Positions 9,262-48,127 of a stretch of 64,000 bases of DNA are shown here, one piece after another. The position numbers and the translations under genes were made by a program. The stretch comes from an uncultured Flavobacteriales bacterium (GTDB taxonomy: Bacteria; Bacteroidota; Bacteroidia; Flavobacteriales; Crocinitomicaceae), in assembly GCA_946480815.1 (NCBI GenBank), contig CAMLLB010000008.1, positions 1 through 64,000 on the forward strand. Direction: 5' to 3'. Positions within the stretch are counted from its first letter, which is position 1, and each line of letters starts with the position of its first letter. The notes under the pieces were generated by a model. The model made no database searches. It was given only the letters and a program-made list of their open reading frames with translations, and was not told where the DNA came from.

Positions 9262-10578
9262 ATGAACTACTTATGTATATCGAACAGGGTTTGGAAATCC
9301 ATTCTGATGATCTGCATTCACTTATTTTGCATGAATGTTCATTCCCAGGATGTGGTGGTTACCGGAACGGTTTTGAATGAACAGAACCAACGGGTGTCCG
9401 GTGCTGAAATCAAACTAGGCCCCGCAAATGTAAAAACCAATTCAATAGGAATTTTTACCCTTCGGGCCAATGTATTTCCTGTTCAATTACACCTTAAGCA
9501 CCCGCTTTACAAAGATTATTTTGAAGTTGTTCGTGCCCCGATAAACAACAGTGACACCGTTAAGCTGGAAATTGTCCTGGAAGGAAAAGAAACAGAACTG
9601 GAAGAGGTGACCATCAATTCTTCACGCATTATTTGGGCCTATGAAAAGAAAAACACCCACATTATTGATTTCGCCCTTTATGAAAAAGAAATGCTCCTGC
9701 TTTGCAGTGAGAATCACCGTTACTTTTTGAGGAGACTCGATTCGATCGGTAAGAAAATTGTAGATGTTCAGATCAAAAAAAATCCGGTTGGCTTATATTC
9801 GGATTGCACCGGTGGAACTCATTTGGTTTATGCCGACAGTATTTTCGAACTAAAATTCATCCGGAATTCCATCGGGATGCTTTCAGGAAATTCGTATAGT
9901 GAGACTATGAAACTTCTGGGACCGTGTATTATCTCCAGTAAAGACAACATTATTTTAAAACGTCTGGGGGCACACAACAAGCTGGTCGAATACGTAAAAG
10001 TCGATTGGAATACTAAAAAACCCAGCCAGCTTTATATCACCAGTGATCAGATAATGATGCGTCAATTGGATGAGTTTGCGTCTGATAATCAAATTGCTGT
10101 TGCATACTCAAATCCAAATTACAGACGTCCGAACATAACCAATAACTTAACTGACAAACAAAAATGGGATAACCAGCAGTTTTATGATCAACTCCTCAAA
10201 AAACCATTGTATGCTCCTATTTTCGAGATCAATGATTCGGTTTATGTATTTGACCATTTCAAAGACAGTGCATTCGTTTATTCCATGTCGGGTAGGTTTA
10301 TTCGCTCATACCAGTTCAGCTATCATTATTTTGAGAATTGGAAAAATGAATTACTTATCAACGAAGAAAAAACAAAGCTCTACGCCAGGTATGAAGTGGA
10401 TGGTTTGGTAACGCTTCGACAAATCAATCCTTCAACCGGAAAAGTCTTGAACCTGGACATCCTTGAAAAGCATATCCATCCGATGCGGATACAAATCCGG
10501 GGGAATTATGCCTATTATATCTATAAGCACTACCTGGATAACAGTATTCATTATCTCTACAAACAACATCTTGAATAG
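9262..10578 (+). CDS. Exported carboxypeptidase-like regulatory domain protein (tandem paralog A)
   Basis: This 438-residue protein has a signal peptide (hydrophobic to about residue 29, ending HSQ) and a CarboxypepD_reg-like beta-sandwich (GTVLNEQNQRVSGAEIKLG). A boundary motif TELEEVTIN follows near residue 115, normally the start of a TonB plug, but here about 320 residues rich in short beta strands and aromatics replace plug and barrel. The C-terminal part resembles a beta-propeller-like sensor by repeat texture only. It is a clear paralog of the next gene: shared QFYD.L..KP.YAP.FE.NDS...FDH..DSA and the ends IHYLYKQHLE / MHYIFKQHLT. Function unknown; probably periplasmic or surface-exposed. 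Confidence 0.72.
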   Translation: MNYLCISNRVWKSILMICIHLFCMNVHSQDVVVTGTVLNEQNQRVSGAEIKLGPANVKTNSIGIFTLRANVFPVQLHLKHPLYKDYFEVVRAPINNSDTVKLEIVLEGKETELEEVTINSSRIIWAYEKKNTHIIDFALYEKEMLLLCSENHRYFLRRLDSIGKKIVDVQIKKNPVGLYSDCTGGTHLVYADSIFELKFIRNSIGMLSGNSYSETMKLLGPCIISSKDNIILKRLGAHNKLVEYVKVDWNTKKPSQLYITSDQIMMRQLDEFASDNQIAVAYSNPNYRRPNITNNLTDKQKWDNQQFYDQLLKKPLYAPIFEINDSVYVFDHFKDSAFVYSMSGRFIRSYQFSYHYFENWKNELLINEEKTKLYARYEVDGLVTLRQINPSTGKVLNLDILEKHIHPMRIQIRGNYAYYIYKHYLDNSIHYLYKQHLE

Positions 10579-10725
10579 GAATCAATACATATCCGAAATC
10601 GGACTGGGGTCTATAACCCTGGAAGGGTCCTGTCAAAAAAACAGGATCTATTTTCATGCGCGCAGAAAGCGACTAATTAGCAACGCAACAACTTTTTCTT
10701 ATTTTTATCTAAATTCGTTAAACAT

Positions 10726-12057
10726 ATGATGAGTCTTTCAAAACCGCTGTTCTTTCTTCTTTTCTTTACATTGGCGAATACCATTTGGTGCCAGGACGAT
10801 ATCATAATAAAAGGAAAAGTAGTGAATGAAACGGGAAGCCCCATTAAAAATGCTTCTGTTCAAATCGACATTCATAACACGCGCACCAATTCAAATGGAA
10901 TTTTCATTCTGAAAAACGGAAACTTCCCTGCACAGATCACTGTGAAAGGGAATTTATACAATGTCTTTACCGATATTCTTTTATTCCCGGAAAAGTGGAA
11001 AGACACGATGATGGTTTACGTTGTCATGACAGGCAAAGAAACCCAATTGGAAGAGGTAACGATTAATGCCGACAGCAAATTCTGGGTCTATCCGCGTAAG
11101 CAGGCAAACGTACTGGATTTCAAAGTGCAGGCAGATGGAAATATTATTTTATGCTGCAGCGATGAACACAATTATTTCCTCCGTCATTTGAATGAAATGG
11201 GAGATAAAATGTATGAAACATCAATTCGTAAGCACCCCAAACAGATCCGGCAGGATTGTGGCGGAAAATTCCATCTGGTTTACAATGACAGCATTTACGA
11301 AACATCCATCGTGGGTCAAGCAGTGGGGATTTTTTCTCCGATTCCCTATTACAAAGCAATCGGATTACTCGACAATTGCTCTTATTCGGATGATACGTCG
11401 ATTATTATCCGGACGTACATGAACCAAAAGCAATACCTGGAATACCAGCTGATCACCAAAAAGACACGTCACAGCAAGACACTTTATGTAAGTCAGGACC
11501 GGCAAAAAAACCGGCAGCTAAAAGACTACCAACGTGAAAACAAACTGACCGTTCAGGAAATTCTAAAAGAATCGAATGCAAATCACAGCGATAAGCTTTC
11601 AAACGACAATTACGACCTGAAAAAAGCAAGAGAACGGTGGACAACCCAACAATTTTACGACCTCATCATTTTAAAACCGGTCTATGCTCCTTTGTTTGAG
11701 CTGAACGATTCATTGATCATTTTTGATCATCCGAATGATTCTGCTGTTGTATTTACAAAATCCGGTGTTCGTGTCCGGAGTTTCCCCATTTCTTATCATT
11801 ATTTCCGGGGCTGGAAAAGTGAATTGATCCCCAACATCGAAAAAACCAGCGTTTACGCCCGTTTTGAAAGAGACGGCATAACGAGTTTAAGAAAGATCAA
11901 CCTTCTTACCGGTAAAGCGGAAGAAGTGGTTCAGATTAAAGACCACATTTACCCGGAACACATTCAGATCCGGCAGGATTTCATTTACTACGTTTATAAG
12001 GACTATCTCGACTTAAGTATGCATTATATTTTCAAACAACATTTGACAAACAGATAA
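10726..12057 (+). CDS. Exported carboxypeptidase-like regulatory domain protein (tandem paralog B)
   Basis: This 443-residue paralog of the preceding gene is collinear throughout. It has a signal peptide (MSLSKPLFFLLFFTLANTIWC), a carboxypeptidase-like sandwich (GKVVNETGSPIKNASVQI), the TQLEEVTIN boundary, a middle region with CCSDEHNYFLRHL, and the C-terminal IFDHPNDSAVVF...YHYFRGWKSELI. The two differ mainly by a lysine/arginine-rich insertion around residues 245-290. The 147-bp gap between them argues for tandem duplication rather than a domain split. No catalytic motif was recognised. The adjacent ATG at 10729 is an equally good start. Confidence 0.72.
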   Translation: MMSLSKPLFFLLFFTLANTIWCQDDIIIKGKVVNETGSPIKNASVQIDIHNTRTNSNGIFILKNGNFPAQITVKGNLYNVFTDILLFPEKWKDTMMVYVVMTGKETQLEEVTINADSKFWVYPRKQANVLDFKVQADGNIILCCSDEHNYFLRHLNEMGDKMYETSIRKHPKQIRQDCGGKFHLVYNDSIYETSIVGQAVGIFSPIPYYKAIGLLDNCSYSDDTSIIIRTYMNQKQYLEYQLITKKTRHSKTLYVSQDRQKNRQLKDYQRENKLTVQEILKESNANHSDKLSNDNYDLKKARERWTTQQFYDLIILKPVYAPLFELNDSLIIFDHPNDSAVVFTKSGVRVRSFPISYHYFRGWKSELIPNIEKTSVYARFERDGITSLRKINLLTGKAEEVVQIKDHIYPEHIQIRQDFIYYVYKDYLDLSMHYIFKQHLTNR

Positions 12058-37025: not shown

Positions 37026-38051
37026 ATGTTTTTAAAGACAAGTACAAAGGTGCAATTGCTTTTCATCGTTTGGACGGTGATTGCAAGCCTTGTGCTTTTC
37101 TGTATTCTCATTGTCAATCATTTCCCCTTTGATATAGCCTGGAAAGACGCGCTTTTTTCCGGTCTCTTAATCTCCGTGATTTCCCAGATCATCTATTTCA
37201 TTCAAACGTATTATCACGCGAAAAGACCAGTCAATTTTTCCAACTTTGGGTTGGTCCTCGTTTTAACAGCATTTTACCAACTCTTAATTAACAGTGCATT
37301 TAAACTGGTCTTGGGTGATGAACGTTGGAGAGAATACATCCTTCCTTTTGAAGGAGCGCGGGCATTCATTGTCTTTTTCATCCTGATCTCAGTGAGTTTG
37401 TACTGGTGGATCAATAAGAACCAACAGATTCAGTCGCAAGTGCACCAGCAGCTCATTGAACAGGAACGCGCATTAACAAAAGCCGAACTGGACAATATTC
37501 ACCAGCAATTACAACCTCATTTCCTGTTCAACAGTTTGAACTCGATCGGAGCTTTGACAGAAATAAACCCGAAAGAAGCAAACCGGATGATTCTCCTCCT
37601 GAGCGATTTTTTAAGGGGAACTCTGCGCAAAGACATTCAAACCCTGATTCCGATTGCAGAGGAAATTGAGCAGGTAAAGCGTTACCTGGAAATTGAAAAG
37701 ATCCGTTTCGGACATCGTTTAAAGACAGCTTTCGATATCGATGAAGGATGTATGAAAACACCGGTCCCGCCACTTTTACTGCAACCGGTAATCGAAAATG
37801 CGATCAAATTCGGTTTATACGGATCTACTGATGAAGTAACTATTTACGTAGGAGTGAAACAGCAGGAAAATGGGTTGATAATCGAAGTCAGAAATCCATT
37901 CGACTCAGATTTCACACAATATAAAACCGGAAAAGGATTTGGATTGACAAGTATCAAACGTAGATTGATGTTGCTTTTTAATCAATACGACCTGTTAACT
38001 ACCGAGAAGCAAGATAAACTATTCATTACTAAAATTTTGATTCCAAGATGA
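37026..38051 (+). CDS. LytS-type sensor histidine kinase (four TM)
   Basis: This 341-residue kinase has four membrane helices in the first 135 residues, a coiled linker, H-box QLQPHFLFNSLNSIGAL (phosphoacceptor His about residue 160), an N-box (QPVIENAIKFGL) and a G-box (GKGFGLTSIKRRL). It belongs to the His_kinase/LytS group common in Bacteroidota. It sits between the LiaF-like gene and the LytTR regulator, overlapping the latter by 4 nt (ATGA). The signal is probably membrane or envelope state. Confidence 0.91.
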   Translation: MFLKTSTKVQLLFIVWTVIASLVLFCILIVNHFPFDIAWKDALFSGLLISVISQIIYFIQTYYHAKRPVNFSNFGLVLVLTAFYQLLINSAFKLVLGDERWREYILPFEGARAFIVFFILISVSLYWWINKNQQIQSQVHQQLIEQERALTKAELDNIHQQLQPHFLFNSLNSIGALTEINPKEANRMILLLSDFLRGTLRKDIQTLIPIAEEIEQVKRYLEIEKIRFGHRLKTAFDIDEGCMKTPVPPLLLQPVIENAIKFGLYGSTDEVTIYVGVKQQENGLIIEVRNPFDSDFTQYKTGKGFGLTSIKRRLMLLFNQYDLLTTEKQDKLFITKILIPR

Positions 38052-38773
38052 TTAAGGCATTCATTGTAGACGACGAACCTTTGGCAAGAGAAGTTGTTAA
38101 AAAGCATTTAGAAAAGTATTCGGATATTGTTCTGGTCGGAGAAGCCAATGACGGATTTGAGGCATTGAAATTGATTCCTGAAGCGAAACCTGATTTGTTA
38201 TTCCTGGATATCCAAATGCCGAAGATCAATGGATTTGAATTATTGGAATTACTTTCCGAAAATCCATCTGTGATCTTTACAACTGCTTTTGACGAATTTG
38301 CTTTAAAGGCATTCGAAGTAAATGCACTGGATTACCTGTTGAAACCATTTTCGGAGGAACGTTTCGACACCGCAGTTACTAAAAAACGAAATTCCGAATT
38401 GCAGGGCGATCCGAAAAAGGATATTCCGCTTCAAATTATTCATGAACAGAACCGGATCGTTGTGAAAGACGGAACTGAAATCAAGATTATCCCGATCAAT
38501 GAAGTTGATTACATTGAAGCGTATGACGATTACGTAAAGATCTACCAGGGCAAAAAATACATTCTGAAGAAACAGACTATGAATCATTTCGAACAGGTTC
38601 TTCCCAAGGATCAGTTCATCCGGATTCATCGTTCGTACATATTAAACGCCAATCAATTAACCAAAATTGAGTCGTACGAAAAAAATAGCTATGTAGCCAT
38701 TTTGAAGAGTGGCACAAGTATTCCGATTTCCCGTTCTTCTTATAGTGATTTGAAAGCGCGGTTAGGATTGTAA
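38048..38773 (+). CDS. LytTR-family response regulator
   Basis: This 241-residue regulator has a receiver domain (VDDEP, phosphoacceptor D54 in LFLDIQMP, LLKPFSEERF) and a LytTR DNA-binding domain (KIIPINEVDYIEAYDDYVKI ... FIRIHRSYILN). Overlap with the kinase gene indicates cotranslation. It lies immediately upstream of the accessory operon starting at 39066, so it is a candidate controller of that operon, but the palindromes there do not look like the direct repeats LytTR proteins usually bind. Confidence 0.92.
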   Translation: MIKAFIVDDEPLAREVVKKHLEKYSDIVLVGEANDGFEALKLIPEAKPDLLFLDIQMPKINGFELLELLSENPSVIFTTAFDEFALKAFEVNALDYLLKPFSEERFDTAVTKKRNSELQGDPKKDIPLQIIHEQNRIVVKDGTEIKIIPINEVDYIEAYDDYVKIYQGKKYILKKQTMNHFEQVLPKDQFIRIHRSYILNANQLTKIESYEKNSYVAILKSGTSIPISRSSYSDLKARLGL

Positions 38774-38791
38774 ACAACAAACTATAGATTT

Positions 38792-38831
38792 AAAAATGTA
38801 GGGGCGTAAAATTTTACGTCCCTACATTTTT
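38792..38831. repeat. GTAGGGGCG palindrome, copy 4
   Basis: A 40-bp palindrome with 20-bp arms and one G-T mismatch; GTAGGGGCG core, AAAATTTT centre, A/T ends. It lies 19 nt past the response regulator stop and probably terminates that operon, separating it from the accessory block. Confidence 0.83.
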
Positions 38832-38860
38832 ATATACCACCCGCAATTGACCTGCATTTC

Positions 38861-38885
38861 TTTTTGATTAAAAAATAATCAAAAA
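38861..38885. promoter_or_regulatory. Upstream palindrome (candidate operator, distal)
   Basis: TTTTTGATTA and TAATCAAAAA form perfect 10-bp arms around an AAAAA centre. Its 15-bp core (38866-38880) recurs in inverted orientation at 38931-38945. Confidence 0.6.
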
Positions 38886-38930
38886 TATTTTTCTTGAAAA
38901 CATCAATAAAACTGGGCTAAAATGAAAAAA

Positions 38931-38945
38931 GATTATTTTTTAATC
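38931..38945. promoter_or_regulatory. Upstream palindrome (candidate operator, proximal)
   Basis: GATTATTTTTTAATC is the exact reverse complement of the distal site core. It ends 18 bp before the -33 element of the accessory-operon promoter. Centres of the two sites are 65 bp apart, close to six helical turns. Confidence 0.6.
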
Positions 38946-38963
38946 AAAATTTATTGAAAAAAA

Positions 38964-38995
38964 TTTGGTAGATCGAAAATGATTTCTTATCTTTG
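38964..38995 (+). promoter_or_regulatory. Promoter of the accessory operon
   Basis: TTTG at 38964-38967, a 20-bp spacer, and TATCTTTG at 38988-38995 match the Bacteroidota -33/-7 pattern. Transcription would start about 39001, leaving a leader of about 65 nt before GTG 39066. Confidence 0.7.
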
Positions 38996-39065: not shown

Positions 39066-40124
39066 GTGAAACGAATTATCATCCTTTCCGTTGGTACGGC
39101 GACTCCTAAAGTTATCAAAGCACTTTCTGAAGCTTTTGAAATCAATCAGGAGTTATTATTCAAAATTCTTTACAATGCGCCTGCTGTCTTTTTGGACAAT
39201 GCAGAAGAAGCGCTGGCAGAAAAAGCATTCACCATTTTGACAGAACTCGGGCTGGAAGTTCTGATCCAAAATACGGATGAAACTGCTCCACAGCCTACAG
39301 AATCCCTTGATATTTCCGTACATATCAATGATCCGGTGAAACTAAGCACCGTCAACAAACAGCTTTCAGAATTCCTGGGCTGCGATGAAAATGAATCTCT
39401 GCAACTTTTGCTCAACGAACCAAGCGTGGTTTTGGGCGGAGTTTCTATGGCCACTGCAGAGAGCTTGCAAAAACGAATAGATGCTGAAGTCATTGCAAGT
39501 AACCCGAAAATGGATTTATATACCATTGAATTCACCGCAGAATCAGAAAATGAACGCATGAAGCTGATTAACCTCATCACAAGCAAGGAAATTACCATTC
39601 CAAAAGGAGAAACAAAATGGGTTCGCAACTTAACCTACGACCAAATGAACCAGTTTCTCACGCGCTATCGCTCGCAACATGGGGTTAAGATCTACAATCA
39701 AAGTTATTCCAGGTTTCGTATTCTACTGGAAAACTTTGAACTGACAAATACTTCCCAAACCAATTTCCTGGTAAACGAAATCGGGATGCCGGAGGAAGTA
39801 CTCGCAGAAATCCACGCCAATCTGCCTGTTTTACTGGACGAATCTGTCAATTTCGGAATACTTCAGGAAAAATTAGCCTGTTATAAACAAGCCGGTTTAA
39901 CCTGTTCCGAAGAACAAATTCCATTCGGAAAGTATGTCATCTCTGTCAGTAACATTACCGATTCAGGGAAAGCAAGGGAAATCCTGAGCAAATTTTACAA
40001 AGATGTCAATTTAGACAAACTCACAGATGTCTGGAAAGCCCCTCTGCCCCTCGGTGGAACTTTGAGTCGACTACTTGAAAAACAGTTGGAATATATTGGA
40101 TGTGAAATTGAATACGAATACTAA
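39066..40124 (+). CDS. Protein of about five L7/L12-CTD-like repeats
   Basis: This 352-residue soluble protein, no signal peptide, starts at GTG. About five modules of 60-70 residues can be aligned by eye. Each has an [LE]..xPxx[VL]xx...(A)xxLxxxLxxxGxxxxI helix-strand unit: YNAPAVFLDNAEEALAEKAF (about 36-55), NEPSVVLGGVSMATAESLQK (117-136), a degenerate one near 185-210, NLPVLLDESVNFGILQEKLA (252-271) and KAPLPLGGTLSRLLEKQLEY (324-343). The pattern matches the C-terminal domain of ribosomal protein L7/L12, used elsewhere as a protein-interaction module. It is too long and repetitive to be L7/L12. It is the first gene of the accessory operon, 5 bp before a helical-repeat gene; a scaffold or adaptor role is inference. 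Confidence 0.6.
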   Translation: MKRIIILSVGTATPKVIKALSEAFEINQELLFKILYNAPAVFLDNAEEALAEKAFTILTELGLEVLIQNTDETAPQPTESLDISVHINDPVKLSTVNKQLSEFLGCDENESLQLLLNEPSVVLGGVSMATAESLQKRIDAEVIASNPKMDLYTIEFTAESENERMKLINLITSKEITIPKGETKWVRNLTYDQMNQFLTRYRSQHGVKIYNQSYSRFRILLENFELTNTSQTNFLVNEIGMPEEVLAEIHANLPVLLDESVNFGILQEKLACYKQAGLTCSEEQIPFGKYVISVSNITDSGKAREILSKFYKDVNLDKLTDVWKAPLPLGGTLSRLLEKQLEYIGCEIEYEY

Positions 40125-40129
40125 CCACT

Positions 40130-40687
40130 ATGAACGAAAACCAACCTAACCTCCATCTCCAAATCGCTGAAAACGGAAAAGTACTCGCTTTAAGAGGAGA
40201 TCACAAAGAAGCATTGCGCCATTACAAAGAGGCCATGCGCATGTGTCAAACGGCCGAAAATTCAGAAATTTTCCTTCAGCATTACAGTTTGTGTGCAATG
40301 GAATCATTGGAATTGATGGGGGCACACGAAGAAATCATCACGTTTTGTGATAAAAGCATCGATTTCCTGATACCTCAAAAAAATGAACGAACAGACGAAT
40401 GGTTCAGGAAAAACCTCGCTTCCCTCTTCGAACGGAAAGGCATCCAGTGCATCTACCTGGATGAAAAAGAAGAGGCAATAGAAGCTTTCAATTCTGCACT
40501 CAAAGAATCAAAAGGTTTACCCTTGCCTTTGAGCAAAGAATTACTGAACTGGCTTCAAAGAGGTTATGCAATTACTCATCAAAAAGTGCGTGATCTTCAA
40601 AACAGACATCATTACTTTACTGTTCGAAAGGAAAATGTCAACGAAAAAATAGCAGTTCAACTGCCGGAAATGATCAATCCGTTTTAA
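40130..40687 (+). CDS. Helical-repeat (TPR-like) protein
   Basis: This 185-residue cytoplasmic protein has TPR-like helix pairs: NGKVLALRGDHKEALRHYKE (about residues 14-33) and KGIQCIYLDEKEEAIEAFNS (near 106-125), both carrying the A..h....A...Y/F spacing of TPR units. No enzyme motif is visible. It starts 5 nt after the L7/L12-like repeat gene and is surely cotranscribed; both look like interaction proteins. Between its stop and the next start lies the structured RNA element (40694-40826), so it may also be affected by processing there. Confidence 0.65.
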   Translation: MNENQPNLHLQIAENGKVLALRGDHKEALRHYKEAMRMCQTAENSEIFLQHYSLCAMESLELMGAHEEIITFCDKSIDFLIPQKNERTDEWFRKNLASLFERKGIQCIYLDEKEEAIEAFNSALKESKGLPLPLSKELLNWLQRGYAITHQKVRDLQNRHHYFTVRKENVNEKIAVQLPEMINPF

Positions 40688-40693
40688 ACCAAC

Positions 40694-40826
40694 GTTTTAT
40701 ACGAAATACAGGTAGCCTTATTTGTGCGCACAAATAATTATCCGCCTGAAACCCATCATTAAAAATGAACGGGACACACCGGTTACACCCTCATTTTTCG
40801 GATGCTGCCTGTGTTTCGTATGGAAC
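40694..40826 (+). ncRNA. Predicted multibranched structured RNA / leader element
   Basis: On the plus-strand transcript, 40694-40716 pairs with 40804-40826 over 23 bp: 19 Watson-Crick pairs and four G-U pairs (U40697, U40698, U40707 and U40713 with G on the 3' arm), with no true mismatch or bulge. Inside are an 8-bp hairpin with a GCGC loop (40718-40737, a perfect 20-bp palindrome) and a second hairpin closed by AAAAATGA/TCATTTTT (40761-40768 with 40791-40798). TCATT at 40756-40760 can compete for the same AATGA (40764-40768), a switch-like option. It ends 19 nt before ATG 40846. It could be a riboregulator, processing signal or guide-like RNA; a MITE is an alternative. Confidence 0.6.
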
Positions 40827-40845
40827 AATTAAAAACAATTAATTT

Positions 40846-42711
40846 ATGAGTGATTTAACCAATTTCAGTGAAGGAGCTTCCATTCTGCAGCAGGTTGATG
40901 TCAGCGACATCTTTACAAACCTCGCGATGGGAATTGCGGAAGCTCAACAGAAACTAGATGACAATTCGATAGCCCAGGCTATTAAGTTGGCAGAAACCAA
41001 CATCGACGGTGAATCCTTGTTGTCTTTAGGATTCGCTCCTGTCTTTTACGCATTCCAATATGCGGACATCAGTGCCAGTATCAGTTTGAGAATGGGTCTG
41101 AAAGAAGCATTGGAATTCGGATTCGGAATCGATGTCCAATTGTCCAACCAGAAAGGGTACACCACAGCTAACCGAACATTCCTGAGTTCAAACAGTTATT
41201 CCGAAACATCCGAAGAATACAAATCTGTGAGACAACTGAATTTTCGCGCAAAAGAAAAAAAGGCGATCAAGATCAACAACAAATTCGTCAGCCAAAGCGA
41301 GTTCCTTGATTCGAAAAGCCGTCTGGAAGATTTCAAACAAACAATCCAGAATGAAGCATCTGTTGACCAGGTGTATGAAGAAATCCAGTCCAAAACAATT
41401 ACTGACAACAATAGTGTCGGAGTAGATGTCTGGATGGATGGAGGCTTTGTTCGAATTGAAGAGGCGTTGCATTTCAACAAGCTTGGTGTCGGTATCTTAA
41501 AAATCAAGGATTATTCAGTTGATCAAACGATTGATATTGACGGACCACTTGGTTCAACAAATACCTTCGATCTTACTACCGATCTCAAGAATAGTTTGGA
41601 TGCCGCTGTATTAGTTCCTGGTGTTATTCCAACTCCTGTTGCCGGTAAATTATACGGTTTAAGTAAAACTGGAACCTTGTACACGCATGATGGAACAAAT
41701 TGGATTCCAATTTCAAGTAAATTCTATTTCGCTTACAATAGCGATAAGATTACTTACAATGAAAATCTGAAATTACCTGCAGAAACAAGTGTCTTGGATT
41801 ATAATACTCCGTATGAAGCACCAGCGACCGCAGTTGACAATCAAAACTACCCAGAGCATAAACTGATCCATAAAGTACTTCGTTTGATCCAAAGCCATGA
41901 TTCTAGTGTATCGATTACTATTACTGGAATGACAGATCCGAAAGGTGGAAACAATCCGAACAACAAGAGTTTGGCAAGAAGACGTGCTGAAAAGCTATGC
42001 AACCATATCTTCGGATCTTCGGCTCCAGTCAATGTTACAATTGGTGCCGTAACGAATACAGCCGGTTCCAGTGATTTATTAAAGCGTCATGCCACAATTG
42101 AATTGAATGCTGATTACATGATTTTTGTTGAAGGTAATGTGAAAAAAGAAGCATCACCAATCAAAACAAGTACCGGACAAAACAAATTCATCTATGCTGA
42201 TAATGCTCCATCAACAACAAGTACTTTTACTACATTGAATGCTCAATATGGTACGATTGCGCTTTCAGCGTCGGCAACCAACTTTAGTTCAATTGTGAGT
42301 AGTGCCGAGTCTCAATTGCTGAATCACAAACATGAAACTACTTCAGAAGGCTTTCATTATTCTTTGGACGACGAAGCAATTGTCAAATTGCATTTGCTTT
42401 CCAATGCGTCAGAGGAGATTTCTATTGAAGAAAATTCAGAAAGTGAAACGGAAGGGTCTGAAAACCAAAGTTCTTACTTATGGGCGAAAACCAAGAAAGA
42501 AAGTGCCGCAGAAAGTGAAAGTTCAAGTAACAGTACGCAAAGTAAGTCGTTCGCTTTCGGAGCAAATGTGGATTTCAGAATGTCTCGCCAGTTTGAAATG
42601 TCGATGGAAGGAAATTCCGCTATGTCTGCACGATTAGTTTCGCTTCCTGCGCCTGAGAACTTCCTGAATTACCTGAATACCAAATATGGAAGTCAGACTA
42701 CGGAAGAATAG
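40846..42711 (+). CDS. Accessory paralog 1, with inserted OmpA-like domain
   Basis: This 621-residue protein lacks a signal peptide. It carries the operon's shared signature: the N-terminal helix GIAEAQQKLDDNSI (residues 29-42), SLLSLGFAPVFYAF (57-70) followed by a beta strand, and a C-terminal strand plus SLPAPENF (near 600). About residues 292-425 form an insertion resembling an OmpA-like domain: KFYFAYNSDKITYNENLKL, then TDPKGG (ligand Asp) and NKSLARRRAEKLCN (ligand Arg). OmpA-like domains normally bind peptidoglycan in the periplasm. Residues about 530-570 are Ser/Glu-rich low complexity. It follows the structured RNA and is the first of the paralog series. Confidence 0.7.
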   Translation: MSDLTNFSEGASILQQVDVSDIFTNLAMGIAEAQQKLDDNSIAQAIKLAETNIDGESLLSLGFAPVFYAFQYADISASISLRMGLKEALEFGFGIDVQLSNQKGYTTANRTFLSSNSYSETSEEYKSVRQLNFRAKEKKAIKINNKFVSQSEFLDSKSRLEDFKQTIQNEASVDQVYEEIQSKTITDNNSVGVDVWMDGGFVRIEEALHFNKLGVGILKIKDYSVDQTIDIDGPLGSTNTFDLTTDLKNSLDAAVLVPGVIPTPVAGKLYGLSKTGTLYTHDGTNWIPISSKFYFAYNSDKITYNENLKLPAETSVLDYNTPYEAPATAVDNQNYPEHKLIHKVLRLIQSHDSSVSITITGMTDPKGGNNPNNKSLARRRAEKLCNHIFGSSAPVNVTIGAVTNTAGSSDLLKRHATIELNADYMIFVEGNVKKEASPIKTSTGQNKFIYADNAPSTTSTFTTLNAQYGTIALSASATNFSSIVSSAESQLLNHKHETTSEGFHYSLDDEAIVKLHLLSNASEEISIEENSESETEGSENQSSYLWAKTKKESAAESESSSNSTQSKSFAFGANVDFRMSRQFEMSMEGNSAMSARLVSLPAPENFLNYLNTKYGSQTTEE

Positions 42712-42736
42712 TATTCACCTATTAAATTCCTAGTAC

Positions 42737-43201
42737 ATGCCAGCAATTGAAACAATAACAAGCACGCTAACGAACTCCCCTCTTTCATCAATGATCGAAA
42801 ACATGGGACTTTCAATAGCAACAGCGCAAGCAGCTTTGGACGGCAATTCCATCAAAATGCTCAAGGAGATCGCTTCCAGTACCGTGGAAATCGGAGGAAA
42901 ACAAGTAAGCCTGTTAAATCTAGGTTTCGTTCCCAGTTTCTATGCTTTTACAGAAGCAAGTTTTGATGCAAAAATGGACTTTGCGATGTCAGAATCAACT
43001 GCTTTCGATGTCAATGGTGTGGTTTCAGTTGAAACAAAGGTAGTTTCGACTACCGTAAGTGCAGGTTACGCACGTAAATTCGATCAATCCGCTTCGGCTT
43101 CTTCGAGTATTGCAGCCCGCATGGTTTCACTGCCTCCACCCGAAAATTTAGTGACTCTTCTGAAAAACTTAAGTGCTGAAGGGACCACAACAACAACGTA
43201 A
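42737..43201 (+). CDS. Accessory paralog 2 (minimal form)
   Basis: At 154 residues this is the shortest complete member and best defines the family core: SPLSSMIENMGLSIATAQAALDGNSI (core IATAQ at 27-31), VSLLNLGFVPSFYAF (57-71) leading into a strand (SFDAKMDFAM), a second strand (VSTTVSAGYARKF) and SLPPPENL (131-138). It has no signal peptide, no catalytic motif and low Cys/Trp. It starts 25 nt after paralog 1. The layout (helix, strand ladder, proline motif) recalls DUF2589-type proteins, but I treat that as a guess. Confidence 0.68.
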   Translation: MPAIETITSTLTNSPLSSMIENMGLSIATAQAALDGNSIKMLKEIASSTVEIGGKQVSLLNLGFVPSFYAFTEASFDAKMDFAMSESTAFDVNGVVSVETKVVSTTVSAGYARKFDQSASASSSIAARMVSLPPPENLVTLLKNLSAEGTTTTT

Positions 43202-43226
43202 TCATTAATCACAAAAACAACAAATT

Positions 43227-44102
43227 ATGTTTGGAAACAACAAACCACGCATTGGTCAGGAACTTCTTGACGTGCCTATGGGCGACATGATTCGCCAAAT
43301 GGCTTTTGCAATCGCAGAAGCACAAATCGTTCTGGATCAGAACTCTATCGACGTAGCCGAAATGATGGGCGGTTTAACAACCGTTACGGATGAAGCCGGA
43401 AATGTGACTTTCCACGACAGTCGTGTATTTTTTGGAACTGAAAGTATCTCAAGAACAGAGGCTGTTGCACGCCACAATAGCACTGCAAACATTCAGCAAA
43501 AAGCAGAAATCCGTGCATTATTGGGAACTACTTACAAACCAACATTATTAACAACTGTTCCAAGTGGTTTCGAGCCTGGAGATGCTATTTCAACAGCAGA
43601 TTCATACATTGATTTCCAGGGATCTTATTTTGTAAGTAACGGGACCAATCCTGCAATCCAGATTTCTTATGGGGACTTGGAAATTACTTCAACAACTCCA
43701 ACTACGGATAATGCCACCATCTTAAGCCTTCCACGCCGAATCTCTATGTTAGAATGTGGTTTCACCCCAACCTTCTATCAATTCGTGGATACGATCATTG
43801 AAGTAAAAATTTCCATCCGTTACACGCAGGAAGGATCAACTAACAGTGCCGTAAACAACAATATAAAATCAAGTGCAGCACGCATTGGTTTTGGATTGGG
43901 ACGAATCAAATTCGGACGATCTGTTCAAACCACGCAGGTAAATGCCAGCTATGCTCAGAAATACAGCTACTCAGCTGAAGGATCGAGTTTGCTTCGCACC
44001 AAATTGGTTCCGATCCCGGCTCCTGCAGTTCTGGAACAGCGTATTCAGCGCTTAATGGAGGAAGAGTTTAATAACTCGGCGCCACCACAAACTACAGCAT
44101 AA
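43227..44102 (+). CDS. Accessory paralog 3
   Basis: This 291-residue family member has LDVPMGDMIRQMAFAIAEAQ (14-33) and LDQNSIDVAEMM, then a middle insertion of about 125 residues (50-170) that is beta-rich and unrelated to the paralogs. The core resumes with SMLECGFTPTFYQF (near 172-186), a strand, VNASYAQKYSY and VPIPAPAV (about 261-268). The insertion point is the same as for the OmpA-like domain of paralog 1 only in general order (paralog 1's lies after GFxPxF), so the family accepts inserts at two sites. It starts 25 nt after paralog 2. Confidence 0.68.
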   Translation: MFGNNKPRIGQELLDVPMGDMIRQMAFAIAEAQIVLDQNSIDVAEMMGGLTTVTDEAGNVTFHDSRVFFGTESISRTEAVARHNSTANIQQKAEIRALLGTTYKPTLLTTVPSGFEPGDAISTADSYIDFQGSYFVSNGTNPAIQISYGDLEITSTTPTTDNATILSLPRRISMLECGFTPTFYQFVDTIIEVKISIRYTQEGSTNSAVNNNIKSSAARIGFGLGRIKFGRSVQTTQVNASYAQKYSYSAEGSSLLRTKLVPIPAPAVLEQRIQRLMEEEFNNSAPPQTTA

Positions 44103-44112
44103 TTAACCCCGG

Positions 44113-44135
44113 GCAGCTGTCGCAATGGCAGCTGC
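44113..44135 (+). other. Intercistronic hairpin in the accessory operon
   Basis: GCAGCTG (44113-44119) pairs with CAGCTGC (44129-44135) around a 9-nt loop, followed by TTTATT. It is a weak terminator or attenuator that could lower expression of downstream paralogs. Confidence 0.5.
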
Positions 44136-44161
44136 TTTATTAACCCTTAATCAATAAGCTT

Positions 44162-44707
44162 ATGATAAATGTTGGAAGAGAGTTATTGAATGCTCCGTTT
44201 CCTGAATTGGTTCGCACGCTTGGTGTAGGGATTGCCGAGGCTCAATATGCTCTCGATCGTGTTTCTATTAAGATCGCCCAATTAATGGCGGGATTTGTAC
44301 TGAATGATCAAGGAAACCTGGAACGTGATGAAACTTCGTTAATCAAACTCAGAGAAAATGATCCCGGAGTGAGTTTACTGGCTCTCGGTTTCACACCTAC
44401 ATTTTACCAGTTCGTAGAAACATACATTGAACTCAAATTGGCTATTTCAATGAAAAAAGAAGAGGAAATTGGCGCTGAAACTTCTGTCAGAGGCGTTGCC
44501 TGGTCACCCTTTGGGGTAATTGCAGCCTCTGTAAACGCAAGTTATTCTCAGAAATACCAATATGAAGCAAGCGGAAGTTCCGAAATGCGTACCAAACTCG
44601 TAACGGTTCCGGCTCCGGCCATGTTTGAAAGTCGTTTGAAACAATTGATGGACGAAAAAGAAATCGCCAGAGTTCAAGCCGAAATGCCACCTCCACCTGA
44701 AAACTAA
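44162..44707 (+). CDS. Accessory paralog 4
   Basis: This 181-residue family member is closest to paralog 3: ELLNAPFPELVRTLGVGIAE (residues 7-26), AEAQYALDRVSI, SLLALGFTPTFYQF (71-84), VNASYSQKYQYEASGSS (124-140) and VTVPAPAM (147-154). The tail is Met/Pro/Glu-rich (EMPPPPEN). It has no signal peptide. It is separated from paralog 3 by 59 bp containing a hairpin and followed by the coiled-coil gene after 50 bp. Confidence 0.7.
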   Translation: MINVGRELLNAPFPELVRTLGVGIAEAQYALDRVSIKIAQLMAGFVLNDQGNLERDETSLIKLRENDPGVSLLALGFTPTFYQFVETYIELKLAISMKKEEEIGAETSVRGVAWSPFGVIAASVNASYSQKYQYEASGSSEMRTKLVTVPAPAMFESRLKQLMDEKEIARVQAEMPPPPEN

Positions 44708-44757
44708 GTGGAAGGCTAAAACGAAGTTTAAATACTAACCTATTCTAAAACAAGATT

Positions 44758-45825
44758 ATGACAAAAAGCTGGAAAAAACTCGTCAAAACCACGGATTTCG
44801 ATTCGAACAACGAAAGCGAAAACTCTTTTAGTGATATCCAATTAACCCTGGACGAAATTGCTTCGCAAAACCGGGAACTGGAGGAATTGTTGAGGGAACG
44901 ACAATCTTTGGAAAATGAGATGGGCAATTTACTTCAATCGAATAATCCTGTAGCAGAAGATCCTCGGTTCACCGGTACGATCGAATCGTTTAAGCATAAA
45001 CGTGAGAAAGAAAAAAACAGAGCCGCTCGGAAGAGAAAACTCGAAGAGCGGCTCTTAAAAAAAAGCAAGGAATTGGAGCAATGGGAGAAAAATCAGGATC
45101 GACTGAGAAAAAAACTTGCCCTCCAAAAGAAATCTTTGCTTAAGAAAGAAACCGAACAAGATCCTTCAACCAGCCAGAAAGCACCGAAATCAAAAGAAAA
45201 AAGTTCCGTAAAACGTTGGTTGGATCCCAACCCGATCCGGAAAAAGAAAGATGTAATAGAAAGAAAGAAGAAAGTGCTGACCGAACCAATTGAGAAAGTA
45301 AAACAGATCCCGGAAAAAATCAGGGAAAAACCAATCGATGAATTCGGACAGAAGGATCTTGTGAAGTTTCAACAGAAACTGGATCAGGTGAAAAAAAATG
45401 TTGAGATTCCGACAAGGATTCGCAGGATAAAAGATGACTGGGACGAAAAGCATGAAACCCGAAAAGAAAAACTGAAAGAAAAGATAAATCTTAAAAAACT
45501 TTCAGAAAAACTGGAAGAAGTAAAGCGTTTTGGTCAATCGGTGAAATCTGATATCAAAAACTCAGTGGAATCCCTGGAGTCAAAAGTGCCGGAAATCAAA
45601 GAAATGACCGAAAAGCTGGAAAAAGAAATGTCTCTGGATGATCGCCAAAACAAAATTTCCGAAAATGCTGCTGCAAAAAAAGCAGAGGAAAAAGAAAACG
45701 AACAGAAAGAGACAGAACGCAGGGAAAGATTGAAAGAACGATTTCTATCCCAAAAAAAGGCCGAACGAAAAGAAGAAGAACGGTCAAGTAGAAAAAAAGA
45801 ACGCAAAAACGAAAAATACACTTAA
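44758..45825 (+). CDS. Highly charged coiled-coil protein
   Basis: This 355-residue protein is dominated by Lys, Glu and Arg (runs such as KKKDVIERKKK and KAERKEEERSSRKKERKN) with long predicted coiled coils (about 20-125 and 190-355) and Pro breaks near 140-170. It has no signal, membrane helix or known domain. It sits in the middle of the paralog operon and ends one base before the next gene. Likely a structural or tethering protein; because of composition its ancestry cannot be judged by eye. Confidence 0.6.
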   Translation: MTKSWKKLVKTTDFDSNNESENSFSDIQLTLDEIASQNRELEELLRERQSLENEMGNLLQSNNPVAEDPRFTGTIESFKHKREKEKNRAARKRKLEERLLKKSKELEQWEKNQDRLRKKLALQKKSLLKKETEQDPSTSQKAPKSKEKSSVKRWLDPNPIRKKKDVIERKKKVLTEPIEKVKQIPEKIREKPIDEFGQKDLVKFQQKLDQVKKNVEIPTRIRRIKDDWDEKHETRKEKLKEKINLKKLSEKLEEVKRFGQSVKSDIKNSVESLESKVPEIKEMTEKLEKEMSLDDRQNKISENAAAKKAEEKENEQKETERRERLKERFLSQKKAERKEEERSSRKKERKNEKYT

Positions 45826-45826
45826 A

Positions 45827-46501
45827 ATGAGTTCAACAACAACCACCAATTCACTGGCCCTGCATGAAATAGTTCTCAGCTTAGCGGACAGTTTGAATGA
45901 TGCGCAGGAAACCTTGCGCAGTGTGCCTCAGTATGACGAATACGGAAGGCCAAATACATTATACCAACTTCCCTATTTGGATTTTAACCTGGAAGTGATT
46001 TCTCAATTTGAAACGACACAAACAGGCGGAAATACTGCCGGTGGAAACGCGATTCGTTTCGTACCGTTTCGAAGCACTGAAACCACAACCAAAAACCTGG
46101 GCACTATCACCAGTAACATTTCAGGGAGATTTGTCGCTGTAATGCCGAACGAAGGATTACCTCAAATTGCATTGAATGCAATTACCAAACCCAATGGAAC
46201 CGACGGTGAATACACTGTTTACTCAATTGCTGTTCAGGCAATTCAACCAAACAATGAGTGGATAGTCGGACAGCGAATAGAAATCAACTTCGATGAAGCT
46301 ACATCACTCAGTCTTAACGCTAACATTCCTGTTACCCCACCGATTTTTATTGGTGCAAAAGACGGTTTCACACGAGCTGACGACGGAAGTGTTTACGTCC
46401 AGGTCAAACTTAAGACCACAGATTACAACGCGGGAAGGACCTTCGTTTTTAAAGCCAATAGTGGCACACAATTTATGTCAATCGCAATTAGTAAGCCATG
46501 A
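45827..46501 (+). CDS. Accessory paralog 5 (divergent)
   Basis: This 224-residue protein keeps the N-terminal helix (LHEIVLSLADSLNDAQETL, residues 12-30) and a strand that aligns with the family's FYQFVETYIELKL (TLYQLPYLDFNLEVI, 44-58), then diverges into a beta-rich domain of about 150 residues with no proline motif. So it looks like the family N-module fused to a different C-terminal domain. It overlaps the next gene by 4 nt. Confidence 0.55.
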   Translation: MSSTTTTNSLALHEIVLSLADSLNDAQETLRSVPQYDEYGRPNTLYQLPYLDFNLEVISQFETTQTGGNTAGGNAIRFVPFRSTETTTKNLGTITSNISGRFVAVMPNEGLPQIALNAITKPNGTDGEYTVYSIAVQAIQPNNEWIVGQRIEINFDEATSLSLNANIPVTPPIFIGAKDGFTRADDGSVYVQVKLKTTDYNAGRTFVFKANSGTQFMSIAISKP

Positions 46502-47412
46502 TAGATTTTTTATCCATTAACTTTACACTTCGGCTTCTTGGTCTTTCGACCGATGGACGAGCTGCTGAAATGCCACTTATAATTCAGTATTTTCATTTCG
46601 AACAACAGACTTGGGTCAATCTTTATGAAATAACAACGATTAAAGCAGGTATAAATTTTCGGAGAATGGCTTCGGAAGTTGATACTACCAATGAAATCGA
46701 AACGTATTTCTTTAATACGATAAGAGCCGGATATACTCCACACATGCGTATTCTTCCCGGAGCTGGGGCTATTGTGCCTGATTTGGGAAAAGACCTGGTT
46801 ATTTCAAGTAATTATTCCTTTGGTTTGAATGAAGTGCTGGAAGCTTATGAGTTTAATTTCGGCAATTTATATTTAGAAACTGAAGAACGAATAACCGAAA
46901 TTGCTGCGACGTTCGAGGAATTCATTCCAATGACGACATTCTTTCCCGTTGCATCCGAAAGTGTTCCCGTTCCTATCAATGAATTGTATACCAACATTGT
47001 TTCTGAAATCGTAACAGCAAGTGACGCAGGTATTGATTCTCCATACAAATTATCCAATATTTCACTAAAACTGAAAGCATTGATTCATGACGACGGCAGC
47101 GGATCATTAAGTGCTACACTATTGGATCTGGAGAATTCTGAAACTGTCAATGAAGGAGCAATCAGTGAGCTTGTTTTTGACATTACTCCTGTTGACAACC
47201 GGGAAAACACTAGCGCAGTCATGCCAAATTGTATTGGTTTGACAGAAACAGCGGTCCGAAGAATCCTGAAAAATGCAGGTTTGCGCCTGAATCCGGTTTA
47301 TCAGAAAAAAGATACTGTGGTGAACGGTGATTCGTTCAAACAGTCTCCAATTCAGGGAACAGGCGTTCAGCCAAATCAATTAGTAACCGTAATTTTTAGT
47401 AAACATGAGTGA
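46498..47412 (+). CDS. Beta-rich protein with C-terminal PASTA domain
   Basis: This 304-residue protein lacks the family helix but ends in a PASTA domain (about 240-302: MPNCIGLTETAVRRILKNAG, then QSPIQGTGVQPNQLVTV, the typical P-x-hx-G...A...L...G pattern). PASTA domains usually bind muropeptides or mediate contacts outside the membrane, but no signal or membrane segment is present. The first 230 residues are beta-rich and unrecognised. It overlaps its neighbours on both sides by 4 and 8 nt. Confidence 0.65.
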   Translation: MIDFLSINFTLRLLGLSTDGRAAEMPLIIQYFHFEQQTWVNLYEITTIKAGINFRRMASEVDTTNEIETYFFNTIRAGYTPHMRILPGAGAIVPDLGKDLVISSNYSFGLNEVLEAYEFNFGNLYLETEERITEIAATFEEFIPMTTFFPVASESVPVPINELYTNIVSEIVTASDAGIDSPYKLSNISLKLKALIHDDGSGSLSATLLDLENSETVNEGAISELVFDITPVDNRENTSAVMPNCIGLTETAVRRILKNAGLRLNPVYQKKDTVVNGDSFKQSPIQGTGVQPNQLVTVIFSKHE

Positions 47413-48079
47413 TACAAATAACCCTATTCAATTATTCAGTGAATTGCTTAGCAGTCCGCTCGGACAATTGATCTCATCAGTTGGCCAGGGAGTCGGCGAT
47501 GCACAAGCTGCCCTTGATCAGGGAGCACTTCAGCAAACATTAGACATCTACGATTTCAGCAAAGATGGAGAAAGAACCAATGAGGAATTAAACCTCGTAA
47601 ACCTGATTCGGGAAATGGGATACCAACCTACATTTTACACCATTCCTGAAACAGAGGTGGAAGCACAGATTTCATTATCGCTGGACCTGAAAGCGGAACA
47701 AACTGCTCCTACGATCGGCTATACACTTTCCAAGTATAAAGTCAACGCAACTCCGCTAAATGCCGGGAACATGAACCGTTATGGATTACAGGCAGATGCT
47801 ATGGCAAAACTGAAATTCAAAATTGTACCGGTTCCACCACCTCCTGGCAGCGAAGAACTGCGTCTTGTACCGGATTTTTATGGAAAATTCTGGAACGAGA
47901 CAACGAAGGAGTTAATTGCAAATCTTGGGTTCCTTTATGAGTTACGAAATGACGTAACTAACGAAGTAATCGAAGACGAAGAAACAGTATTGAATTGCGC
48001 TATTTCGAACCAAAGTCCGGTAAAAGGGACTGTTTCCAAAGTCGGCAATGTGCTTGTTTTGCAAATCACAGTGATCTAA
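47405..48079 (+). CDS. Accessory paralog 6, with PASTA-like tail
   Basis: This 224-residue family member has LLSSPLGQLISSVGQGVGDA (residues 14-33) and AQAALDQ, LIREMGYQPTFYTI (67-80) with strand VEAQISLSL, and VPVPPPPG (141-148), followed directly by a PASTA-like segment (about 153-224: VPDFYGKFWNETTKELIANL...NQSPVKGTVSKVGNVLVL). It thus fuses the family core to the domain found at the end of the preceding gene. It is the last gene of the operon; the terminator starts 9 nt after the stop. Confidence 0.65.
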   Translation: MSDTNNPIQLFSELLSSPLGQLISSVGQGVGDAQAALDQGALQQTLDIYDFSKDGERTNEELNLVNLIREMGYQPTFYTIPETEVEAQISLSLDLKAEQTAPTIGYTLSKYKVNATPLNAGNMNRYGLQADAMAKLKFKIVPVPPPPGSEELRLVPDFYGKFWNETTKELIANLGFLYELRNDVTNEVIEDEETVLNCAISNQSPVKGTVSKVGNVLVLQITVI

Positions 48080-48087
48080 ACTACAGG

Positions 48088-48127
48088 AAAAATCCGGGAC
48101 AAAACACAACACTTTGTCCCGGATTTT
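48088..48127 (+). terminator. Terminator of the accessory operon
   Basis: A 15-bp stem of AAAATCCGGGACAAA with TTTGTCCCGGATTTT (3' arm 48113-48127) and a 9-nt loop, GC-rich in the middle, ending in a short T run. It is the strongest hairpin between 39 and 49 kb and closes the operon. Confidence 0.9.

Follow-up and report, generated by a model that had tools for sequence, protein, structure and literature searches.

A conserved ten-gene operon of paralogous core proteins with PASTA and OmpA-like modules in a Flavobacteriales bacterium: a candidate hetero-oligomeric assembly

Gene layout of the locus

A run of ten plus-strand genes, in the order A, B, P1, P2, P3, P4, CC, P5, P7, and P6, was analysed on contig CAMLLB010000008.1 of an uncultured Flavobacteriales bacterium. 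The window is the whole stretch of 64,000 nucleotides (nt) from positions 1 to 64,000 of this contig, and the run occupies positions 39066–48079 (Table 1). An initial annotation had described an operon from P1 to P6 built from a repeated protein family. Its eight open reading frames (ORFs) were all found on the plus strand at the positions given there. The span from P1 to P6 was kept as part of the unit. However, the start at P1 was not kept because the upstream genes A and B also belong to it. P7 had been counted within the paralog operon; it is a member of the unit, yet the core domain was not matched in it by hhalign.

Table 1. Genes, domains, and sequence signals of the ten-gene unit (aa, amino acids; CTD, C-terminal domain; Ig, immunoglobulin)
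Feature	Position	Strand	Description
Terminator-like hairpin	38788..38835	+	24-nt arms, 92% complementary; 38790–38832 folds at –25.7 kcal/mol, z –9.5
Inverted repeat, candidate operator	38862..38949	.	19-nt perfect arms, 50 nt apart
Bacteroidota-type promoter-like site TTTG-N-TAnnTTTG	38964..38995	+	upstream of gene A
Gene A	39066..40124	+	352 aa; N-terminal L7/L12-CTD-like domain; domain perhaps repeated, by eye
Gene B	40130..40687	+	185 aa; TPR protein, Pfam TPR_2 9e-7; conserved slot
Gene P1	40846..42711	+	621 aa; large insert splits core domain; hhalign 98–99% to P2, P3, P4, P6
OmpA-like segment of P1	41866..42027	+	residues 341–394; NCBIfam E 0.0047 (weak)
Gene P2	42737..43201	+	154 aa; minimal core subunit
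Gene P3	43227..44102	+	291 aa; core with insert separating helix from hairpin
Gene P4	44162..44707	+	181 aa; core subunit nearest DUF2589
Gene CC	44758..45825	+	355 aa; charged (charge content of six relatives); probably coiled coil, by eye; conserved slot
Gene P5	45827..46501	+	224 aa; diverged core, then Ig-like region
Gene P7	46498..47412	+	304 aa; PASTA protein, no core paralog
PASTA domain of P7	47218..47403	+	residues 241–302; Pfam E 1e-8
Gene P6	47405..48079	+	224 aa; core, then PASTA
PASTA domain of P6	47867..48064	+	residues 155–220; window copy E 0.003, under Pfam cut-off
Terminator hairpin after P6	48089..48127	+	15-nt perfect arms; 48083–48125 folds at –19.1 kcal/mol, z –5.9

Conservation of the ten-gene unit

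P4 has 597 relatives at E ≤ 0.001, and the closest named ones are Fluviicola proteins. A contig scan with P4 gave 148 relatives, the best 80 of which made up the set of loci (L numbers below). By record title, the 80 loci come from Bacteroidota, Pseudomonadota, Myxococcota, Gemmatimonadota, Acidobacteriota, Verrucomicrobiota, Latescibacterota, and Chloroflexota. A binning error is possible for the last five phyla, since metagenome bins are their sole source here. A, P5, and P6 are all present in 68 of the 80 loci, and all ten slots are filled in 67 of these 68; the other 12 loci are cut or partial and were left uncounted. The 67 complete loci span Bacteroidota, Pseudomonadota, Myxococcota, Gemmatimonadota, and Acidobacteriota. 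The sole exception, L041 (Verrucomicrobiota), is without a recognisable CC. The initial annotation had made its proposal depend on conserved linkage in other genomes, and this linkage is strong. A and B are part of the conserved ten-gene unit.

The CC slot was assigned by position in some loci, and the gene at the P4 position scores higher as P2 in eight Bacteroidota loci. By family models alone, all ten genes are found in order in 55 loci. Three loci were flagged by the order test. In L043 and L060, the cause is an overlap of over-extended ORF starts; in L066, a partial locus from Chloroflexota, genes like P3 and P4 lie downstream of P6. In the latter, from an Anaerolineales bin (L066:2807-7447), P7 is 1546 aa long with repeats that resemble LamG domains by eye, and the operon order differs. 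An additional core-like gene lies past P6 in L033 and L051. The median intergenic gaps range from –4 to 30.5 nt. Clusters of flanking genes found in at least four loci are limited to close relatives, common genes excepted. These common genes (two-component proteins in 18 of 81 loci including the window, ABC ATPase, and chaperonin) were given no weight as partners of the unit.

Paralogy of the core proteins

The relatedness of P1, P2, P3, P4, and P6, which had been proposed from a shared order of motifs, was confirmed by two methods. Pairwise phmmer matches were far above chance (P3–P4, E 1e-33; P2–P4, 1e-19; P4–P6, 1e-16; P1–P2, 1e-16). The hhalign comparison of family profiles made from the fetched loci gave 98–100% in all ten pairs. 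The core domain has no covering match in Pfam, PHROG, or solved structures, in agreement with the description of the family as unrecognised.

P5 had been listed as a weaker paralog, and this held at the profile level but not pairwise. No phmmer match of P5 to the other paralogs of the window was obtained. Its family profile matched P1 (92%) and P6 (93%) by hhalign, P2 at 45%, and not the families of P3 (2%) and P4 (4%). Against a mixed superfamily alignment, the P5 profile reached 94% with a score of 55.9, while the maximum in 60 column shuffles was 29.0 and the reversed alignment gave 16.4. Since its score lies above both the shuffled and the reversed controls, P5 can very probably be counted as a sixth, distant member, joined through P1 and P6. 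A, B, CC, and P7 gave 8.3% or less against the core families by hhalign, except for the P6–P7 pair, whose 95% is due to the PASTA domain common to both.

The cut core domains of 16 loci (75 rows, 116 columns) were used for a quick tree. On this tree, 5 label changes are needed for the five clear paralogs, against a possible minimum of 4 and a shuffled mean of 45.8, and each paralog forms its own near-clade across phyla. Therefore, the duplications very probably took place before the spread over phyla. The diversification by duplication suggested in the initial annotation fits this tree well.

Predicted fold of the core domain

The AlphaFold2 model of P2 consists of a helix (residues 16–47), two strands (68–93 and 108–132), and a second helix (136–152), with a predicted local distance difference test (pLDDT) value of 73.8 and a predicted template modelling (pTM) score of 0.56. 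In the AlphaFold model of P4 (pLDDT 70.5, pTM 0.50), the strands are at 83–95 and 132–144. Both models, which are of middling confidence, share the same order of elements: a long helix, two strands forming a beta-hairpin, and a C-terminal helix. At the hairpin tip, the confidence of either model is low. Along the first strand, hydrophobic and polar residues alternate in each of the five clear paralog families (p 0.001–0.044). For the second strand, the alternation was seen in P1 and P6 only, the P2 segment being misplaced by the pattern, and fixed columns of the mixed alignment gave p 0.08.

A Foldseek search of the PDB with the P2 model gave no match at E ≤ 0.001, the best being about E 0.05. 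Among the 50 PDB rows listed, pore proteins that form barrels and the flagellar MS ring make up the majority, and a few are collar or portal proteins of phages. We read these rows as a long hairpin-in-ring shape common to the predicted model and the listed proteins, and not as kinship. Neither by sequence nor by fold, with models of middling confidence, did the core family have a significant match in the PDB.

Accessory domains and export signals

The members scanned for domains were 57 of 78 for P7 (fragments and near-copies excluded), 39 of 76 for P1, 41 of 75 for P6, 48 of 78 for P5, and 37 of 73 for A. For P4, 47 members were scanned (33 of 73 loci rows and 14 database proteins). PASTA was found at E ≤ 0.01 in all 57 P7 members, the window included, and in 34 of the 41 P6 members; the P6 profile matched the PknB PASTA structure with E 1.8e-11. 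Of the 39 P1 members, 35 had an OmpA (PF00691) match at E ≤ 0.01 (best 2.1e-18). The P1 copy of the window is diverged and gave no Pfam OmpA match at 0.01. In P5, the Ig-like domain Big_1 was matched at E ≤ 1 in 19 of the 48 members (best 1.4e-6), and not in the window copy. Pfam Ribosomal_L12 was matched at E ≤ 0.1 in 23 of the 37 A members, with a best value of 2.3e-7 and 0.023 for the window copy; the A profile matched PDB entry 1ctf with E 2.2e-6. A match of CC to the tail_tube model (NCBIfam E 0.021) lies within a charged stretch and was given no weight.

The claimed lack of signal peptides was borne out by a crude hydropathy rule only. No N-terminal signal or hydrophobic stretch was found by this rule in any family, some ORF starts being over-extended. 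Among 72 A and 77 P5 relatives, 3 and 2, respectively, have a 19-residue window with a mean hydropathy of at least 1.8. At a mean of at least 1.6, it occurs in 15 A relatives, 12 P5 relatives, and one to three of most other families.

Transcription signals

Between 38700 and 48200, the only inverted repeats of at least 12 nt with arms up to 60 nt apart are the three in Table 1. The hairpin at 38788–38835 separates the operon from the regulator gene upstream, and together with the hairpin at 48089–48127 it brackets all ten genes. The latter is the terminator that had been noted at the operon end. It was unlisted in a consensus terminator scan, for which its 9-nt loop is the probable reason. Of 16 relatives examined, 7 have a hairpin no more than 120 nt from the P6 stop. 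No Rfam family was matched between 38000 and 49500. The ten genes would be read as one transcript.

The promoter-like site before A was assigned with the Bacteroidota promoter consensus. The full pattern occurs twice in the window, where 3.6 occurrences are expected, which is not above chance by count. Four of five close relatives (L001, L002, L003, and L006, but not L004) have TAnnTTTG 77–80 nt upstream of A, and none of five more distant loci has it at this distance. Its placement in the close relatives therefore gives mild support to A, rather than P1, as the first gene of the operon. The inverted repeat at 38862–38949 could be a regulator site. Of this repeat, 16–17 nt are present in L001 and L002; L004 has a different 13-nt repeat, and L003 and L006 have none. 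A sensor kinase and LytTR-type regulator pair, recognised by eye, occupies 37026–38773, immediately before the operon, and Fluviicola loci have related two-component genes near the corresponding place.

Relation to DUF2589 and minimal clusters

The initial annotation had the impression that the layout recalls DUF2589-type proteins. By hhalign, DUF2589 (PF11655) was aligned to P4 with 93% over 166 columns, to P2 with 51%, and to P3 with 15%, the reversed control being 20%; the values for P1, P5, and P6 were each under 1%. The likeness thus applies to P4, and more weakly to P2, and not to P1, P3, P5, or P6. The DUF2589–P4 score is 41.7, compared with a shuffle maximum of 23.7, and the percentage varies with the alignment, from 26% at 10 rows to 83% at 41 rows. 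Against the mixed superfamily alignment, DUF2589 gave 8%, near the reversed control. The Pfam model of DUF2589 had no match at E ≤ 1 in the ten proteins of the window or in the 47 P4 members. Judged from these profile comparisons, DUF2589 is probably a remote relative and not the family itself.

By eye, DUF2589 resembles the core in its N-terminal helix with the AQ motif, a proline-rich turn to a strand, and a later strand followed by a proline-rich motif and a C-terminal helix. In contrast, its strand alternation is not significant (p 0.50 and 0.09). It also differs from the operon in its short cassette, which by eye has a partner of about 240 aa and a helical one of about 180 aa in six loci (L082, L085–L088, and L094). 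The 240-aa partner was considered as a P5 equivalent and rejected: the two are alike by eye, but the profile value is 4%, inside the shuffle range. In L086 and L122 (L122:6557-8576), the DUF2589 gene adjoins a patatin-like phospholipase gene by eye. In L122, it is at the edge of a viral contig that carries tail-like genes.

A minimal cluster in L118–L121 has, like the operon, two tandem core paralogs (57–143 bits against the P2 and P4 models). On a Sphaerotilus plasmid (L097), core paralogs were detected by tblastn with 35% identity and E 1e-14. In L118–L120 and L097, genes that look by eye like the P5 N-terminus and a coiled coil stand next to them, whereas only the two core genes were recognised in L121. 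Unlike the operon, the minimal cluster is unmatched by the A, B, CC, P5, and P7 models, and PASTA was not found in the four Sphaerotilus proteins scanned.

Distribution and transfer

The unit is rare: with the seed counted, samples of 395, 274, and 289 genomes contained it in 4, 2, and 1 cases, respectively. The minimal form accounts for three cases in the first sample and one in the second. A quick operon tree of 71 rows has many long branches, and single joins were not relied on. In this tree, the Bacteroidota stand together except for one record labelled Glaciecola, and the window is placed beside Fluviicola chungangensis. Alpha- and Gammaproteobacteria are intermixed, along with one Gemmatimonadales bin. 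This mixing of classes suggests that the operon has been transferred between bacterial classes. The exceptional record, L006, is titled Glaciecola amylolytica strain THG-3.7 (CP034120.1). Its label looks wrong because it carries a Fluviicola-type operon (87% identity in P4) and its downstream genes are common with Fluviicola loci.

A proposed assembly and its alternatives

No described function for the operon was found in the open-access literature among the matches listed. The reading that we favour, with a probability of roughly 0.6, is that the operon encodes a hetero-oligomer made in the cytoplasm and carrying cell-wall-binding modules. The ten genes would be one transcription unit, and the body of the assembly would consist of five or six paralogous subunits, each with a long helix, a beta-hairpin, and a C-terminal helix. 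The predicted subunit has one hairpin, which would need partners; lined up next to one another, the hairpins would most likely form a closed ring, barrel, or tube, with each paralog at a fixed position. The amphipathic first strands, and the ring or barrel proteins with long hairpins that make up most of the Foldseek rows listed for P2, none of them at E ≤ 0.001, would fit such a form. Each clear paralog has its own ancient near-clade and thus seems to have kept a separate role. Six paralogs in one kept arrangement also point to fixed and non-redundant places within a single assembly, and from this we infer a hetero-oligomer as such. A barrel or pore is speculative. The accessory domains, namely the OmpA-like insert of P1, PASTA of P6 and P7, and the Ig-like end of P5, point to cell-wall-type ligands and would presumably be displayed outward to bind them. 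CC, P7, B with its TPR domain, and A with its L7/L12-CTD-like domain may serve as scaffold, tether, and assembly factors. A fuller form of the proposal combines a single hetero-oligomeric beta-barrel or tube of five to six hairpin subunits that addresses peptidoglycan through its PASTA and OmpA-like modules, a mobile ten-gene block, and a superfamily including the minimal form and DUF2589. It is tentative, and we regard it as possible rather than likely.

The same operon could instead make a cytoplasmic polymer or inclusion body like R-bodies or gas vesicles, in which the paralogs form a ribbon, wall, or filament and the PASTA and OmpA-like folds are only subunit contacts. R-bodies share with the operon several small paralogs, a cytoplasmic location, and horizontal spread. 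The patchy distribution of the operon and the failure of the rule used to find export signals would also suit a polymer. Gas vesicle proteins have an alpha-beta-beta-alpha subunit and a multi-paralog operon, and the predicted core subunit is reminiscent of GvpA. However, the RebB and GvpA-type Pfam models were unmatched at E ≤ 1 by the ten proteins of the window and the 47 P4 members, and no companion Gvp protein was recognised in the unit. PASTA and OmpA are very widely retained, seemingly beyond the needs of a glue, and we know of no such domains in Reb clusters. A polymer of this kind seems unlikely.

Still more doubtful is a defence or conflict system in which a triggered cytosolic complex puts the hairpins into the cell's own membrane and growth stops. 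The amphipathic first strands and the spread between bacterial classes would agree with it. Matches to Trypco2 (PF19631) at E ≤ 1 are weak and not significant: the P5 family has 4 among 48 members, with a best value of 0.0039, and the P4 family 1 among 47 (0.031). According to PMC7159879, Trypco domains stand beside trypsin-like peptidases in conflict systems, and a related class has OmpA and PASTA domains downstream of a membrane segment. In the present unit, however, no trypsin-like partner and no protease, nuclease, or other enzyme was recognised, and no membrane segment was found before the OmpA or PASTA domains. The PADLOC defence models gave only two matches, both PD-T4-6 models at the PASTA end of P7. 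Finally, we consider it very improbable that the operon is the remains of a phage or phage-tail-like particle. The export signals not found and the few collar and portal proteins among the weak PDB rows would fit such an origin, as would one strong Foldseek match of the P2 model, to the predicted viral protein A0A516MP19 (178 aa; E 6.7e-6, TM score 0.62). Despite this fold match, no relative was found in viral contigs by a sequence pattern scan, nor by a tblastn search of 50,697 phage records that used P4 as the query. Structural PHROG families were unmatched at E ≤ 1 by the ten proteins of the window, sheath, tube, or baseplate genes were not found in the unit, and the ten slots are filled in loci of five phyla.

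For the hetero-oligomer with cell-wall-binding modules, no export signal being found by the rule used, action within the cell, at its envelope, or following release would all be compatible. The operon raises the question of why PASTA and OmpA domains are carried by proteins made in the cytoplasm. Ten genes kept together in distant bacteria around an unrecognised core domain are a good candidate for a cellular machine that has so far escaped notice, and a vague resemblance to DUF2589 has become a testable system with defined subunits.

Other genes of the window

Apart from the unit, two similar tandem genes of 438 and 443 aa were noticed by eye at 9262–12057.

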